Origin: a virus
Virus record (IMG/VR): IMGVR_UViG_3300013099_000032
Location: 1-45,615 of that record
Reading direction: 5' to 3' (one strand)
Length of the DNA: 45,615 nt
Position 1 is the first letter of the stretch, and each line of letters starts with the position of its first letter. Below, in pieces: positions 21,177 to 45,615 of the stretch. The notes below the pieces were generated by a model. The model searched no databases, was not told where the DNA came from, and worked only from the letters and a program-made list of their open reading frames with translations. Made by a program: the position numbers and the translations under genes.

Positions 21177-22685
21177 CTATCTCCTACCCCTGAGCACATC
21201 GTAGGAAGTCCGAGCCTGCCCCCTGTTAACCCTCAGGCTTGGATGGACTTCCGGTGTTACGATCTCAGGCTTAACAACCTTTTCTGCAAATGTCAAGGCC
21301 AATCCATCAGCATCATCAGGAGAGGCCAGACCCATTTTCTTCATGTCCTTCTTCTTCACGAGTTGGATCTTATCGTTCCCAGAGAAGAAATACTCCTGAG
21401 ATACAAGGTCATCACGAAGATCTCTCTCATCGGGGATGGCCCCGCCATCCTTCAGCCAGTCACGCATGTCACACCAGATCTGAGCCCGCTTGTTGAGGCA
21501 CTCACGACGATTGGACGTACTGGAGAAGGGAACCTCGATGCATCCAACACCAAGCTGACGAAGACGATCAATGACACCAGCGCCATGGCCGGCGTCGATG
21601 AAGATCGCATGAGGTCTGAACTTAGCGTACTTCTGGCTGATGATGCCGGCGTAGGTCATGTTGTCGATCCCTCGCCACTCACCGAGCTTCCAACTGGCCA
21701 TACCCTGACGCATGTACAGCGTGGATTTGTCATCACCGTATCGAGCTACATCAACACCGAAGATGATCGGAGCATAGTCGTACTGCATCGGATGAAGGTG
21801 CTTGCCCATGGCAGCTTCGACATGATCCTCAGGGATCAGCTGACAGACTGCGGCCCGGGGGAAGACACCCTTAATTCGCACCCGGACGAAGTCGGAGTCC
21901 TCGCCATAGTCTTCAACCCACTCAGCGAAGAGCTCGTGATTCGTTCCTTCGACGGTCCTTGAATCAATCTGATCGGTGTTCCATCTGTGTCGGTTCCTGC
22001 CAAAGCACCAGCGAAAGGATCCAGTGTTCCGAGTGGGGTTACCGAACACGAACCACATCGGTTCACCATCAGTCAGTCCTCCATGGGCTACCTGCCAGAT
22101 AGCCTCGGGGATGGCACTCGCTTCGTCGAAGATGTAGAACGGTGTGGAGTTGACAGCGTGAAGACCAGCAAACGCTTCGGACTTGTTGGCATCACAAGTC
22201 ATGGCATCAACACGCCACGTATCCGGGTTGGTCTTCGAGAACATGCACATGTTGCCACGGACGTTGCGGTACTGGAAGAACCTCTCAGTCAGTGAGAGGT
22301 TATGCCACTTGGCCAGCTCACCCCACGTCTTAGTGCGAAGCTGATCGAGAGTGTTAGAGGTGACCACACCCTTAGACTGTGGACGGGTGTCGAGGATGAA
22401 CTTGATGATCCATGCGGTGAGTGCGCTCTTACCAATCCCGTGACCTGAGGATCGTGCCATCTGGATCGGTGCGACTGGCTTGGTCCCATCGAACTTACGA
22501 CTCTTGAGCTTGTTGCCCCACTCGGTGAGGAACTTCTCCTGCCAAGGTCGAGGGCCTGCATGGTTTTCGAGATCTGTGCCCTTCTTGCCCCAAGGAAAAA
22601 CCCACCTGACGTATGCAAGTGGGTCGTCCCGATACTCGACAAGTCTGTCGGCCAGTTCTTTGTATAGCCCCTCAAGCCCACTCAA
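21177..22685 (-). CDS. terL: Terminase large subunit
   Basis: This 502-residue packaging motor starts with TTG 22685 in a TTGA overlap with terS (GGGAG seven bases upstream). Walker A is GHGIGKS at 81-87 and Walker B with catalytic Glu is YIFDEAS at 184-190. A likely coupling motif is FGNPTRNTG at 214-222. The C-terminal RNase H-like nuclease shows GVDVARYGDD (D312), FIDAGHG (D364) and DDADGLALTF (D457-D460). It cleaves and pumps DNA into the prohead through the portal. All key residues look intact. Confidence 0.95.
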   Translation of the reverse strand: MSGLEGLYKELADRLVEYRDDPLAYVRWVFPWGKKGTDLENHAGPRPWQEKFLTEWGNKLKSRKFDGTKPVAPIQMARSSGHGIGKSALTAWIIKFILDTRPQSKGVVTSNTLDQLRTKTWGELAKWHNLSLTERFFQYRNVRGNMCMFSKTNPDTWRVDAMTCDANKSEAFAGLHAVNSTPFYIFDEASAIPEAIWQVAHGGLTDGEPMWFVFGNPTRNTGSFRWCFGRNRHRWNTDQIDSRTVEGTNHELFAEWVEDYGEDSDFVRVRIKGVFPRAAVCQLIPEDHVEAAMGKHLHPMQYDYAPIIFGVDVARYGDDKSTLYMRQGMASWKLGEWRGIDNMTYAGIISQKYAKFRPHAIFIDAGHGAGVIDRLRQLGVGCIEVPFSSTSNRRECLNKRAQIWCDMRDWLKDGGAIPDERDLRDDLVSQEYFFSGNDKIQLVKKKDMKKMGLASPDDADGLALTFAEKVVKPEIVTPEVHPSLRVNRGQARTSYDVLRGRR

Positions 22686-23254
22686 GCGAAGAAGTCTCCC
22701 ACGGGTTGGGCCTTGGCCACTCTCTCTTTGGCAGCGGCTAACATCTCAGCGAGGTTGATGTTCACGGTGGTGTCCACATCGGACATATACTTCTTCAGTC
22801 TCGCAAGGAACTCCAGTGCCTGAGGCTTGGAGCTGATCTTGATCTTCTTCAGGAGTCCCACGTACTCCAGCTTGCCATCCTTCTTCTCGAACAGTTTCGA
22901 GACATCGAGGCCGGCGATGGTGCGCCTCACCTCTTCGGGCATATCAGCGATGGGCCTGACGTTGCCATCGTTATCGAACAGGTCAATGGGATCGAGGAAG
23001 GCAATGCATGCTGCCTCCTGAATGATCCTCTCTTCGCTGACATCGAACTTTCTCATGATCGGGCCGAGTCTCCTGTTGAGCTCCTTCGTGACAGTTGGGC
23101 TGCTGAACCTGCGCTTGGCCTCTTTGCGTGGGTGCTTACTGTCCGGGTTGATCTCACGGTACGCAGCACCCCCATTGAACCCATTGCTGATGAACGCACT
23201 CACGAACTCCTTGGCCTTAGCATCGTTCAGGCTCTTGAAATTGAACCTGTCCAC
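22682..23254 (-). CDS. terS: Terminase small subunit
   Basis: This 190-residue protein starts with GTG 23254 with GGAGG six bases upstream. Its N-terminal half (FVSAFISNGFNGGAAYREINPDSKHPRKEAKRRFSSPTV) has the helix-turn-helix pattern of Terminase_2-type small subunits ('F...y..n.f.g..AyreagY....a...s..ll..p.V'). It is followed by an oligomerisation region (EERIIQEAACIAFLDPIDLFDNDGN). It recognises viral DNA for packaging. It lies directly behind a good promoter and before terL. Confidence 0.88.
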   Translation of the reverse strand: MDRFNFKSLNDAKAKEFVSAFISNGFNGGAAYREINPDSKHPRKEAKRRFSSPTVTKELNRRLGPIMRKFDVSEERIIQEAACIAFLDPIDLFDNDGNVRPIADMPEEVRRTIAGLDVSKLFEKKDGKLEYVGLLKKIKISSKPQALEFLARLKKYMSDVDTTVNINLAEMLAAAKERVAKAQPVGDFFA

Positions 23255-23309: not shown

Positions 23310-23738
23310 TCAAGAACCCAGCCACTGATCGAGAGAGCCAACCCCTGAGCCAGCAGTACGCTCCGGGCCCGGGGTAGGCCCTTGCCTTAGCGTCCCATCG
23401 GGCAGGTCGATGATCTGGAGCTGTTCGCCCTTCCAGACCCAGAGCTGGGCAATGCCCCCGGGACACGCGATCCAATGACCAACCTCCCTGCGGCGTTCAA
23501 CCATGAGCTTCTTGAGATGGGAGCTCTTGCCCGAGTAGCTCGTGGACTGGATGCCAATCAGCCCGATACCCGGGGCCTGAGCGATGATGTCCATCCAACC
23601 CCCAAGATCCTGACGGATGCCAAACCCCACACCCGGGCCAGACTTCCTCCTCACGTTCTGATTCCACTTCTCGACCACGAGCGGAACCCAACCACGCCTC
23701 CTGCATTCTTTCAGGGTCTTCTTCGTTGTCGATTTCAA
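23310..23738 (-). CDS. Restriction-endonuclease-like fold protein (VRR-NUC-like), active site altered
   Basis: This 142-residue protein probably starts with TTG 23738 behind a weak AGGGAAG. The core GGWMDIIAQAPGIGLIGIQSTSYSGKSSHLKKLM resembles small phage nuclease-fold proteins: a strand with Asp, a turn and 'IQST', where a PD-(D/E)XK enzyme would have E-x-K. Basic residues (KTLKECRRRGW, RRKSG) flank it. It precedes the late promoter and terS, a usual place for packaging-linked nucleases. Catalysis is uncertain because the E-x-K is replaced by Q-S-T. The overlapping ORF 23497-23745 in another frame is probably a shadow. Confidence 0.65.
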   Translation of the reverse strand: MKSTTKKTLKECRRRGWVPLVVEKWNQNVRRKSGPGVGFGIRQDLGGWMDIIAQAPGIGLIGIQSTSYSGKSSHLKKLMVERRREVGHWIACPGGIAQLWVWKGEQLQIIDLPDGTLRQGPTPGPERTAGSGVGSLDQWLGS

Positions 23739-23825
23739 GATCCACTTCCCTTCAGATTCGAGCTTGAGGCACCCTCTGAAACCCCTCAGGGTCGTAAGTG
23801 GGATCCAGCCTCAAGCTGGCAAGCC

Positions 23826-23854
23826 CTCTACGGCCCCCGTAGGGGGCCAGAGGA
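23826..23854. other. Stable GC hairpin beside the repeat array
   Basis: ggccccc-gta-gggggcc (23832-23848) extends with outer cctct/agagg pairing interrupted by a 2-nt bulge. No T-tract follows on either strand. It lies between the nuclease-like gene and the 23-bp element array and no coding ORF covers it. It may be a processing signal, or part of an origin or packaging site. Confidence 0.55.
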
Positions 23855-23865
23855 GAGGCCATTTT

Positions 23866-24190
23866 GTCATGACACTCAACGACAGTAACTTGCAAAGTGC
23901 CCAAAAGTTGTTATGACACTCAACGACAGTAACTTACAAATCTCAAAATGAAAACGCCTATACCCCATTAGGTAAGTCCTTCTCGTTGAATGTCATCACA
24001 ACAAAACCTCACAGGGCATCTCAGGCCTAAAGCTTTCTCGTTCAATGTCATGACATTTTCCTACTCCCTATTCTAACATCGCTCTTAAGTTACTCGCGTT
24101 CAATGTCATGACAGCAATTTGTTGTTATGACACTTAACCACAATAACTTAGCAGCTACCCCACTCGTAAGTCATTATGGATGAGTGTCAT
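23866..24190. repeat. Array of seven 23-bp elements in mixed orientation (candidate origin / operator / pac)
   Basis: Seven copies occur at 23869-23891, 23913-23935, 23974-23996, 24029-24051, 24087-24109, 24127-24149 and 24168-24190. Each reads ATGACA...AACTT on one strand or AAGTT...TGTCAT on the other; the orientations are +, +, -, -, -, +, -. Copies 1 and 2 are identical over 23 bp. Four copies are joined to the palindrome GTCATGACA. Spacing is about 40-61 bp, and the region is markedly AT-richer than its neighbours. It fills the only non-coding stretch above 300 bp, between the PrimPol-helicase gene and the late promoter. I infer protein-binding sites for replication initiation, packaging or late-gene control. 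Confidence 0.85.
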
Positions 24191-24210
24191 GACATTTTCT
24201 CGTCAATCTC

Positions 24211-26238
24211 CTAACAGAAGAACGCTTCTACGCTGTTTCTGACCATCTTCACTGACCGGCCAGACCCATCTATCTGGTACTGCCAGTTCCCCTCGACCAC
24301 TCCCCCGCCTATCTGAGAGCGCAGGAAGGCCGTTGCTGACTTGGCAGTGGTTTTGCCCGAGAGCGGGCCTTGCTCACTGTAGAGCTCATTGAAATGGCTG
24401 TCAGTACGCAGCTGCTCAGCCAGTATGCCCAGTGGGATGTCGTTCTTGCCCATGTGGTCGAACCAATCCGGCAGAAGTCTGAACAGGCAGTCACGCGCCG
24501 ACTCTCTACGTTCAAGTTGGGTTGGCTGGGCATGGACTGCCACGCCCACTGAGTCATCTGCGTCCTGATGGCAGGGGAGAACAACTGAGTCCATGCGGAA
24601 CCATGGATCCTGTCCCATCTGCTTGGGCGACAGATTGCACTTGGCCGGCGTCATGATCACCCACCTCCACGCCTCATCAGGATCTATGAAGATGTCCTTG
24701 TCGAGTTTGGGGCGGTAGATATCCATGGTGTGGATGATACGGGCGGCTCCCTGAAGTGAGCTGGCACCTCGGAGCGCATCCATGTTGCCCCTGAGGTTGC
24801 CGGTCTTAGCTGCTTCCTTGGTGGTGTGGTGAACTACATGTACTGCACACCCCAGCTGAGCCATCTGCTGGAGCTGGCCGACAACCATGTTGCCCCCGGT
24901 ATTATCATTCTCAGCTAATGTGTGCGCCCGGGAGTAGGGGTCTATGGTCACGAGGAGGATGCCAAACTTCTTGATCAGATCCTTGACAACGTCCACCATG
25001 GGTTGGTTGACCACGTACTTGCTGCCCTCTTGGTAGACGAGGTTGAGCGGGTTCATCATCGCTGAGACCAGAGTGACCGGAACTTCCTTGGGGTCCAGTT
25101 TGTACTTGGCGCAGATGCCCATGAACCGTTCCTCGAGATCCTCAATGGGCTCTTCGGTCGAGATGTACAGGCCCCGCCCCTGTTGGCGTATGGGCTTGCC
25201 TGTGAGAGGCCGGCCAGTTGCTACGGCAACGATCTCAAGCAGGCTGATACGGCTCTTACCGACACCGGGAGGCGCACCAGTGGCTGTTATGTAGCCTTTG
25301 CAGTAGCGGCCCTTAATGATCCAGTCCGGGGGTTTGATCTGGTGGACGTTTAGCTCCTCGGAGTGCGTCATGTTCAGGTTGGATCTGATTCTGGTTACTG
25401 TCTGGTGAGCGATCAGTTCCTTGGCCTCAGGAGTTTCAATGCCCGGGGGGTTCTGACCGTACTTGAATGCATGGTTGATCTTGCGCTGGAGCTCTTCGGG
25501 TTCCCATGCAGGTGCGCAGCGGGGATTCCAGTGTTCCATCATGAGGTCAAACGCTGAGCCCGGACTGAGTCCCAGATCCTTGCACTTGGCTGCGACTGCG
25601 TAGGTGAGATTGTCACCACCTGCGCCCTCGATAGCCGGCTCGGCCTGCATCAGGTGGGCTATGGCTGCTTCCCTGTGGTGATCCTGATCCAGTTCCAGAC
25701 TTGTGTTCTGGGGCAGCTGCGCTACTTCCTGTACTGTCTGGGTTCCGATCTCGCGGATCCACTCAGGCAGTGGCGCTACCGGCAGTTCGTCCTTGATCTT
25801 GTACTCGCCTTCCATCTGGCTCTTGCCGATATGGACAGTCGAGCTCGGCGGCAGTACTACGTAACCACCAATCGATTTCAGTTCGACGTTCTCGACGAGT
25901 TCCTTCTTCGCCTTGATCGCTCCTTCGAAGAGGTACTGGGCACCTTTGCCTGAGGTGTAGTGGCTGCGGGTTGCAACGTCAGGGTGATCGCCCTTGAGCT
26001 TCATCCAGTTGCGCCAGCCGTGTTGCCCCGGCTTGTTGTCTATGTCCAGTACGGTCTTATTGCTCTTACCACAATCCATTCCCCAATTGCAGCCGGGGAA
26101 CTGCACCTGCCACTGCTGAATCTGAGCTACGTCCAGAGTGGATTTTTCCTGCCACGGAGTGACCAGAGGAGGTGCTTTGTGGCCTGCCTTGATTGGGAAT
26201 ATGTAGATCCCCAGTGCCACGTATCCTAGCACATCCAT
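24211..26238 (-). CDS. PrimPol-helicase fusion (bifunctional primase/polymerase plus RecA-fold helicase)
   Basis: This 675-residue replication protein begins at ATG 26238. The N-terminal archaeo-eukaryotic-type primase has VLDIDNKPG (D65, D67), GAQYLFE (99-105) and SIGGYVVLPPS (122-132). After a linker the helicase domain has Walker A GAPPGVGKS (321-329), Walker B LLVTIDPYSRAH (D433) and VHVVHHTTKE (466-475), as in RepA/RadA-like hexameric helicases. It would prime and unwind DNA at the fork, working with the family A polymerase encoded at 36-38 kb. The 23-bp element array lies directly downstream, which is attractive for an origin. Confidence 0.9.
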   Translation of the reverse strand: MDVLGYVALGIYIFPIKAGHKAPPLVTPWQEKSTLDVAQIQQWQVQFPGCNWGMDCGKSNKTVLDIDNKPGQHGWRNWMKLKGDHPDVATRSHYTSGKGAQYLFEGAIKAKKELVENVELKSIGGYVVLPPSSTVHIGKSQMEGEYKIKDELPVAPLPEWIREIGTQTVQEVAQLPQNTSLELDQDHHREAAIAHLMQAEPAIEGAGGDNLTYAVAAKCKDLGLSPGSAFDLMMEHWNPRCAPAWEPEELQRKINHAFKYGQNPPGIETPEAKELIAHQTVTRIRSNLNMTHSEELNVHQIKPPDWIIKGRYCKGYITATGAPPGVGKSRISLLEIVAVATGRPLTGKPIRQQGRGLYISTEEPIEDLEERFMGICAKYKLDPKEVPVTLVSAMMNPLNLVYQEGSKYVVNQPMVDVVKDLIKKFGILLVTIDPYSRAHTLAENDNTGGNMVVGQLQQMAQLGCAVHVVHHTTKEAAKTGNLRGNMDALRGASSLQGAARIIHTMDIYRPKLDKDIFIDPDEAWRWVIMTPAKCNLSPKQMGQDPWFRMDSVVLPCHQDADDSVGVAVHAQPTQLERRESARDCLFRLLPDWFDHMGKNDIPLGILAEQLRTDSHFNELYSEQGPLSGKTTAKSATAFLRSQIGGGVVEGNWQYQIDGSGRSVKMVRNSVEAFFC

Positions 26239-26241
26239 GGA

Positions 26242-26475
26242 CTACTCCTTCTCGGTAAATGCGGGATGATTGGTGACATCGTTGTTCGCCCAGATCTCCC
26301 ACGGGATGCGAACTCCCAGTACCTCCTCTGATGCTTTTTCGAGTTTCCTGCCCATGACCACACTGCAACCTCTGCCTCTGTGCAGAATGTCAGACAGGTG
26401 GCTGGGGCTTACTTCGGCAAGCTTGGCGATCCTCGCCTGCTGGCCATGTTTCCAGTATCCTTGTTTGTCAGTCAT
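26242..26475 (-). CDS. Small Cro/CI-type helix-turn-helix protein
   Basis: This 77-residue protein contains GQQARIAKLAEVSPSHLSDILHRGRGCS, a typical helix-turn-helix in the Cro/CI class ('q..lA...gvs...is.il.grr'). It is followed by MGRKLEKASEEVLG, the usual third/fourth helix, and a short acidic tail. It overlaps the upstream membrane peptide gene by 8 nt and precedes the PrimPol gene by 3 nt. It probably regulates phage promoters. The 28.5-28.7 kb divergent region and the 23-bp elements are candidate targets, but nothing shows which. Confidence 0.85.
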   Translation of the reverse strand: MTDKQGYWKHGQQARIAKLAEVSPSHLSDILHRGRGCSVVMGRKLEKASEEVLGVRIPWEIWANNDVTNHPAFTEKE

Positions 26476-28710: not shown

Positions 28711-28741
28711 ACCGAGAGCCCGAACCGAGGAGACCGAGATG
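28711..28741 (+). repeat. Duplicated ribosome-binding leader, copy 1 (copy 2 at 28997-29027)
   Basis: About 31 bp ending in GAGGAGACCGAGATG recur before the second gene with two mismatches. Both contain the Shine-Dalgarno and the start codon of adjacent genes. It may reflect gene duplication or replacement, or shared translational control. Confidence 0.8.
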
Positions 28742-28990: not shown

Positions 28991-29024
28991 CCCGCCACCG
29001 AGAACCTGAACCGAGGAGACCGAG

Positions 29025-29336
29025 ATGAAACTTCTGACCAAAACCCTTGAGAAACGCTTCGCCAAGGTAGGATCACAGGACGGCAAGGGCAATGAAGCTA
29101 TTGTAATCGCCAAGTACTTCCATCCCTTCAGCAGCTGGACATGGTACGCCACTGAGTACAACGTCAACGAGCGCACGTTCTTCGGGTTCGTTGCCGGCTT
29201 CGAGGGTGAGCTTGGCTACTTCTCACTTGATGAACTGGAATCCCTCAGAGTCAAGGGCCTGCCTATGGAGCGCGATCTCTACTGCGGCGAGAAGACTCTG
29301 GCCGAACACCTCAAGCGCGATGCGGTTGGTGCATGA
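29025..29336 (+). CDS. DUF2958 family protein
   Basis: This 103-residue protein carries the DUF2958 signature: [15 protein letters not shown], then [41 protein letters not shown] and the [15 protein letters not shown] end. The family is common on phages, plasmids and mobile elements; its role is unknown to me. The leader duplicates that of the preceding gene. It ends in an ATGA overlap with the next gene. Confidence 0.88.
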
Positions 29337-45277: not shown

Positions 45278-45424
45278 CTACCCTCCGTACCACATGCAGC
45301 GGTTAATGTCTTGTGGCCTTTCAGTATGGCTAGACTTCGCCCTGCTAAGATATGCCAAAGACATCAGCACACACCACGCTAGCCCCAACCCCAAAATTAT
45401 GTTTTCCACAACCTCGGAGTGCAT
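45278..45424 (-). CDS. Small membrane peptide after the tail fibre (gp17.5-like position)
   Basis: ATG 45424 overlaps the tail fibre stop (TAATG). The 48-residue peptide reads MHSEVVENIILGLGLAWCVLMSLAYLSRAK..., with one membrane helix and a polar tail. In T7 the class II holin gp17.5 follows the tail fibre. The position and span make a holin possible, but sequence similarity is not evident. Confidence 0.55.
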   Translation of the reverse strand: MHSEVVENIILGLGLAWCVLMSLAYLSRAKSSHTERPQDINRCMWYGG

Positions 45425-45615
45425 TACTGCGCCCCCAAGTGGAAGAAGGCTGGAATCATGGAAGTGACTACCAAGTCATCGGCAATATCCTGAGCCGAGT
45501 CAGCACTAGCTGCTGCCGCCGCTTCGCTGGCTGCAGAGTTGTTCTCGCTGACCAAAGCCGCTGCAGCACTAACAGCCGCGTTGGTTTCGCTGGTGGCAGC
45601 GTTGTTCTCGCTTAC
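45424..45615 (-). CDS. Tail fibre, C-terminal part (gene starts at 863)
   Basis: 63 codons plus stop, open to the right edge. It holds the same Ala/Ser/Asn repeat (VSENNAATSETNAAVS..., AALVSENNSAASEAAAAAS) and a short unique end, ADSAQDIADDLVVTSMIPAFFHLGAQ. There is no receptor-binding head after the shaft. Joining the two edges directly would create AGG TAA. Adding 16 nt (or 16 plus 63n) restores the frame and the repeat register, which implies a small assembly gap. The two pieces would give about 355 residues plus any missing repeats. Confidence 0.8.
   Translation of the reverse strand, partial: VSENNAATSETNAAVSAAAALVSENNSAASEAAAAASADSAQDIADDLVVTSMIPAFFHLGAQ

Follow-up and report, generated by a model that had tools for sequence, protein, structure and literature searches.

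Genes and repeat elements at the locus

The window analysed here is the whole virus record of a podovirus-like phage, 45,615 nucleotides long, which encodes a portal (PF12236) and a major capsid protein (PF20911). Read along its minus strand, a 77-aa HTH protein is followed by a PrimPol-helicase, an array of repeats, a conserved 142-aa protein (o142), the terminase small subunit (TerS) and the terminase large subunit (TerL). The features are listed in this order.

26242..26475, minus strand: 77-aa HTH protein, immediately upstream of PrimPol and probably not what binds the array
24211..26238, minus strand: PrimPol-helicase, 675 aa, with Prim-Pol at residues 5-160 and an AAA_25/RSF1010 RepA-type helicase at 295-476
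Residues about 603-672 of the PrimPol: C-terminal helices-and-hairpin region, proposed array binder by extension from relatives
23856..24210, no strand: proposed replication origin, the AT-rich array region (40.6% GC) from PrimPol to o142, proposed from AT-richness and positional conservation
24167..24194, minus strand: repeat copy 7, the nearest copy, 16 bp past the PrimPol stop codon
24123..24150, plus strand: repeat copy 6, an inverted pair with copy 5
24086..24113, minus strand: repeat copy 5
24028..24055, minus strand: repeat copy 4, right end diverged (AGCTTTA)
23973..24000, minus strand: repeat copy 3
23909..23936, plus strand: repeat copy 2
23865..23892, plus strand: repeat copy 1 (TGTCATGACACTCAACGACAGTAACTTG)
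23823..23847, no strand: GC hairpin flanking the array, core CCCCCGTAGGGGG at 23834-23846
23310..23738, minus strand: o142, with a PD-(D/E)XK-like pattern
22682..23254, minus strand: TerS
21177..22685, minus strand: TerL

The array spans 23865-24194 and consists of seven copies of an element of about 28 bp (consensus TGTYATGACAYTNAACGACARTAACTTA) in the orientation ++---+-, the first base of each, in its own direction, lying at 23865+, 23909+, 24000-, 24055-, 24113-, 24123+ and 24194-; the element is confined to the array and has no copies elsewhere in the window. A sequence-only reading of this DNA had described seven 23-bp elements, and their places, their orientations and the identity of the first two over 23 bp were all confirmed; the conserved unit, TGT-N-ATGACA-Y-T-N-AAC-...-ACTTA, is longer, at 28 bp, since TGT-N-ATGACA is present in every copy. 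Of the two ends said to be shared, ATGACA occurs in all copies, but AACTT in only four of the seven, the right end being GACTT in two others and CTTT in one. The palindrome to which several copies were thought to be fused, the 10-bp TGTCATGACA, is the left arm of the element itself and is exact in four of seven copies. When TGTYATGACAYTNAAC was searched for with up to three mismatches, 10 matches were obtained in the window against 2.75 expected, a number reached by none of 100 dinucleotide shuffles; nine lie inside the array, two of the ten are a second reading of the palindrome, and the single match outside carries three mismatches.

The same reading had placed the elements in a long, AT-rich, non-coding gap beside a GC hairpin, and this description holds: the 472 bp at 23739-24210 form the longest gap between called genes in the window, the next being 300 bp, and contain its lowest-GC 350-bp stretch (40.6% against 55.1%). 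Iteron origins in general have repeats within or beside an AT-rich segment, as is the case here, the copies being putative binding sites. The cumulative GC skew, which had been suggested as a check, reaches its minimum near 28.5 kb, where transcription diverges, and not at the array, and gives no support for an origin there.

Some further observations concern the surroundings of the array. The o142 protein and its homologues in two related loci (L014 8639-9010 and L015 2045-2449; related loci are designated by L numbers) share the pattern R-x-DL-x-G-x-x-D...Q-x-T, judged PD-(D/E)XK-like by eye, and a Pfam search gave no match; the protein may be a resolvase or nuclease next to the proposed origin. 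The minus-strand reading frames in which the two ends of the window lie (1-863 and 45424-45615) are repetitive and resemble each other in sequence, which suggests that a repeat at the ends of the contig is permuted or collapsed. The leader accgaggagaccgagatga is found in identical form before two successive plus-strand reading frames, at 28723-28741 and 29008-29026.

Position of the array among relatives

When the window PrimPol was searched directly and on its own, one distant relative was returned; no close relatives of the window were found, and a DNA-level phage search gave terminase-gene matches only. An exact 18-mer search of viral contigs gave three matches, all inside major-capsid-type coding genes, which were set aside as coincidence. 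Relatives were gathered by a PrimPol-alignment scan together with loci from earlier relative searches, giving 90 loci with a PrimPol reading frame, which fall into 36 clusters at 80% identity.

A strong repeat peak is present in 30 of the 36 dereplicated clusters, and in 16 of these 30 the strongest peak falls between -100 and +700 bp from the PrimPol stop, against 2.34 expected (P=5.5e-11). In control loci without a PrimPol match, no significant concentration was obtained when the peaks were anchored on TerL (10 of 30, 6.6 expected, P=0.09) or on o142 (4 of 26, P=0.18). The position of the array thus tracks the PrimPol-helicase gene, and not TerL or o142. The array lies farther away, 1.6-2.9 kb from PrimPol, in L014, L105, L104, L115 and L128, and many PrimPol-linked arrays have no TerL match in the flanking sequence examined. 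Among the relatives found through TerL, L014 and L015 retain the order PrimPol, array, o142, TerS, TerL; L021 retains HTH, PrimPol, array, an order shared by the window and L014, and L013 has its array before o142, homologues of which follow the array in L013, L014 and L015.

The repeat itself behaves differently from its position. Nearly every lineage has its own repeat of 8-11 bp, and the repeat sequence is not conserved among lineages: that of the window is replaced by GATACGGACA in L013 and L014, by GTTTTTCCAG in L015 and by GTTCAAAAGT in L021, and one large branch typically has TGCNNNNGTT-like repeats. The sequence-only reading had made conservation of the repeat or of its position in relatives a test of the array; the position is kept and the sequence is not. 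Its proposal of an iteron-like, initiator-binding array beside a helicase/primase gene gains support from arrays that follow this gene across relatives. Three relatives, L118 (8609-9048), L122 and L124, have another array of different sequence (GCCGTGGAACA) at 1.1-1.7 kb behind PrimPol, and L118 additionally has TGCATCAGT iterons behind the PrimPol stop.

Other elements recur in these arrays. An exact IHF consensus is present in 9 of 22 arrays of relatives, commonly as AATCAATGACTTACG, and C4-N2..6-G4 hairpins in 8 of 22; relative to the remainder of the loci, the enrichment is 26-fold for the IHF consensus and 14-fold for the hairpins, a similar hairpin being present in the window. No exact match to the IHF consensus WATCAANNNNTTR occurs in the window, where the ACTTA ends of the repeats are only reminiscent of it. 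An Rfam search gave no match.

Covariation of the iterons with the PrimPol C-terminus

In the best-sampled branch of relatives, the large one with TGCNNNNGTT-like repeats, the iteron has the form T-N2-C-N4-N5-C-A and the PrimPol C-terminal end the motif D-x-x-Z0-Z1-Z2-R/K-x-(F/Y)(V/I)-x-V-G; iteron bases were compared with wing residues in this frame. The covariation table was assembled by hand and its iteron counts were rechecked separately afterwards; loci in which the repeat or the wing was not in the same frame, such as L115, L165, L144, L170 and L172, were left out. Each iteron in the table occurs 2-11 times downstream of PrimPol and never in the rest of its own locus. The bases N4N5 vary with the residue at Z1: they are TC where Z1 is R, GA or GT where it is H, GC where it is K, and a pair starting with C or A where it is M, E, N or Q. 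The mutual information between Z1 and N4 was reached in none of 200,000 permutations, and N4 was predicted from Z1 in 21 of 23 cases when one cluster was left out at a time. A second pairing links Z0 to N2, R with G and S with T (688 of 200,000 permutations), the S/T combination being found in two sub-lineages, in L130 and in L272. Three of the 25 entries are exceptions (L107, L259 and L262); some loci were fetched after the pattern had been noticed, and most of these agreed with it, but L259 and L262 did not.

Near-identical phages provide the clearest comparison. The PrimPols of L282 and L283 are 97.7% identical over aligned positions, and all eight differences after residue 284 fall within 628-642, the wing and just after it; all nine shared iterons change from GACAGT to TCCAGT, together with H to R in the wing, and the spacers are nearly the same. 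Their arrays lie 466-680 bp behind the PrimPol stop. Likewise, between L161 and L156 (97% identical) the iterons change from TCCAGT to GCCAGT with R to K, other C-terminal positions differing too. When an alignment of twelve sequences from the clusters of these two pairs was filtered for columns that separate the iteron classes, two columns passed, Z1 and the second residue before Z1. The stretch of about 450 bp between PrimPol and the array in L161 and L282 apparently encodes an HNH-type endonuclease, as judged by eye.

Since iteron bases covary with wing residues, and since both switch together in L282 and L283, the PrimPol probably reads the array itself. The earlier suggestion of this protein as a binder is thus favoured, although covariation in relatives points to its C-terminal domain and not to the N-terminus that had been named. 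No description of such a code or of linked switching was found in open-licence papers, and linked wing/repeat switching appears to be undescribed in that literature.

The C-terminal domain of the covarying branch is predicted to be a winged helix. The model for L164 has the order helix-helix-helix-strand-wing-strand, with pLDDT mostly 85-91, and Z0/Z1 (R101/R102) are located in the wing. Foldseek returned no PDB match for this domain at E<=0.001; its weak matches include many winged-helix proteins, such as PadR, TFE and BLM RQC. The window C-terminus is strongly diverged, with no significant match to the profile of the covarying family (hhalign probability 0.5), and its model is poor (pLDDT below 50 across most of 576-675), showing a helix order and a terminal hairpin of the same kind. 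By extension from the covariation in relatives, the window array would be read by this domain.

Other roles considered for the array

The array could instead be an operator, on which a phage repressor or activator such as the 77-aa HTH protein controls the late operon just beyond it. It lies immediately upstream of the o142-TerS-TerL run, a small HTH gene is found in the neighbouring operon, and the palindromic arms of the element would fit a dimeric repressor. We nevertheless regard this role as unlikely: the arrays of relatives follow PrimPol rather than late genes, the covariation in those relatives points to PrimPol, and no sigma-70-like promoter was found on the late strand inside the array. 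The HTH protein, also named as a candidate in the sequence-only reading, is disfavoured as a binder because its recognition helix is almost the same in the window (SPSHLSDILHR) and in L014 (SSQHLSDILHR), while their arrays differ.

It is less probable still that the inverted copies act through secondary structure, and not as iterons, forming a large stem-loop origin like that of pRN1. An essential 100-nt stem-loop lies behind the PrimPol gene of that plasmid (PMC4234260), and the single strand of the window array folds far better than shuffled sequences (z=-6.9); such strong pairing is, however, an automatic consequence of inverted copies. Nor is the inverted arrangement conserved, for in L014 and L134 the top repeat words all face the same way, and iteron switching keeps the letters of the repeat the same across copies of both orientations. 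A packaging initiation (pac/cos) site read by TerS, the terminase having been the third binder suggested, is highly improbable, for although pac sites are often in or near terS and the distance from the array to the TerS start downstream is about 0.6-0.9 kb, the repeat peaks of relatives without a PrimPol match are not significantly concentrated upstream of TerL, and many PrimPol-linked arrays have no TerL match in the flanking sequence examined.

A candidate origin and its proposed reader, the PrimPol-helicase

Taken together, these data favour the array as the iteron part of the phage replication origin, with the PrimPol-RepA-type helicase as the initiator whose gene it directly follows, a reading to which we assign a probability of about 0.74. 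For the window, we infer the start of replication at the array and, from the relatives, the pairing with its binder. In the proposed sequence of events, the helicase would use its C-terminal domain, of winged-helix type, to dock on the repeats, the AT-rich DNA around and among these would open, the helicase ring would then load and the fused PrimPol domain would prime. On balance, we also think that the array is one example of a widespread class of phage origins, in which hypervariable iterons are read by the C-terminal wing of a PrimPol-RepA protein through a residue-to-base code and near-identical phages switch origin identity by a few wing residues together with all iterons; this is held less firmly than the assignment as an origin.

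Several known systems resemble this arrangement in part. Passages of PMC7581432, citing Ubeda et al. 2007, describe for the SaPI Rep and the SCCmec Cch2 proteins that the C-terminal domain of an initiator helicase reads iterons downstream of its own gene. In the window, too, short repeats directly follow the initiator-helicase gene, a position borne out family-wide, and a C-terminal reader may be shared. The helicase differs: SaPI5 Rep and Cch2 are given there as D5/Primase_Cterm-type enzymes, whereas that of the window has neither this nor a DUF927-type domain and is an AAA_25, RecA-fold helicase like RSF1010 RepA, fused to an AEP PrimPol; the best PDB match of its modelled domain is RSF1010 RepA itself (1nlf, TM 0.78 by target). 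The present system, unlike SaPI rep-ori and SCCmec Cch2, is carried by tailed phages and prophages, and those passages of PMC7581432 report no linked switching of wing and iterons.

In plasmid pRN1 the order is orf56, orf904, origin, the latter no more than about 166 bp from the stop codon, and the authors proposed the same arrangement for phage BIP-1 (PMC4234260). The window has the same order of a small DNA-binding protein gene, a PrimPol-helicase and then the putative origin, and orf904 carries a C-terminal winged helix, as predicted in the covarying branch; pRN1 differs in its SF3 helicase, where the window has a RecA-fold RepA-type enzyme, and in its stem-loop origin, stated without iteron structure, where the window has seven repeats (PMC4234260). 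The array would therefore work like SaPI rep-ori, yet it is classed with neither, because the helicase is of another type and pRN1 has no iterons.

According to passages of PMC4234260, the P4 alpha protein uses a winged-helix domain to bind repeats at its origin and also unwinds and primes, so that a single protein would combine these activities in both cases, although the primase of P4 alpha is of the TOPRIM type and of a separate lineage. The RSF1010 oriV, as treated in the same passages, likewise joins an iteron origin to a RepA-type hexameric helicase and a dedicated primase, but these functions are divided among three separate proteins (RepA, RepB' and RepC), the iterons being read by RepC.

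Given the linked change of the wing and of all iterons in near-identical phages, one may ask what drives a change of origin identity and how all nine shared iterons of L282/L283 switched simultaneously; as a speculation, competition with co-infecting relatives or satellites may be the driving force. The covariation provides a testable protein-DNA recognition code drawn from natural variants. Most environmental phage origins are unknown, and the rule that a lineage's own repeat lies just behind its PrimPol-helicase gene would locate many of them at once.
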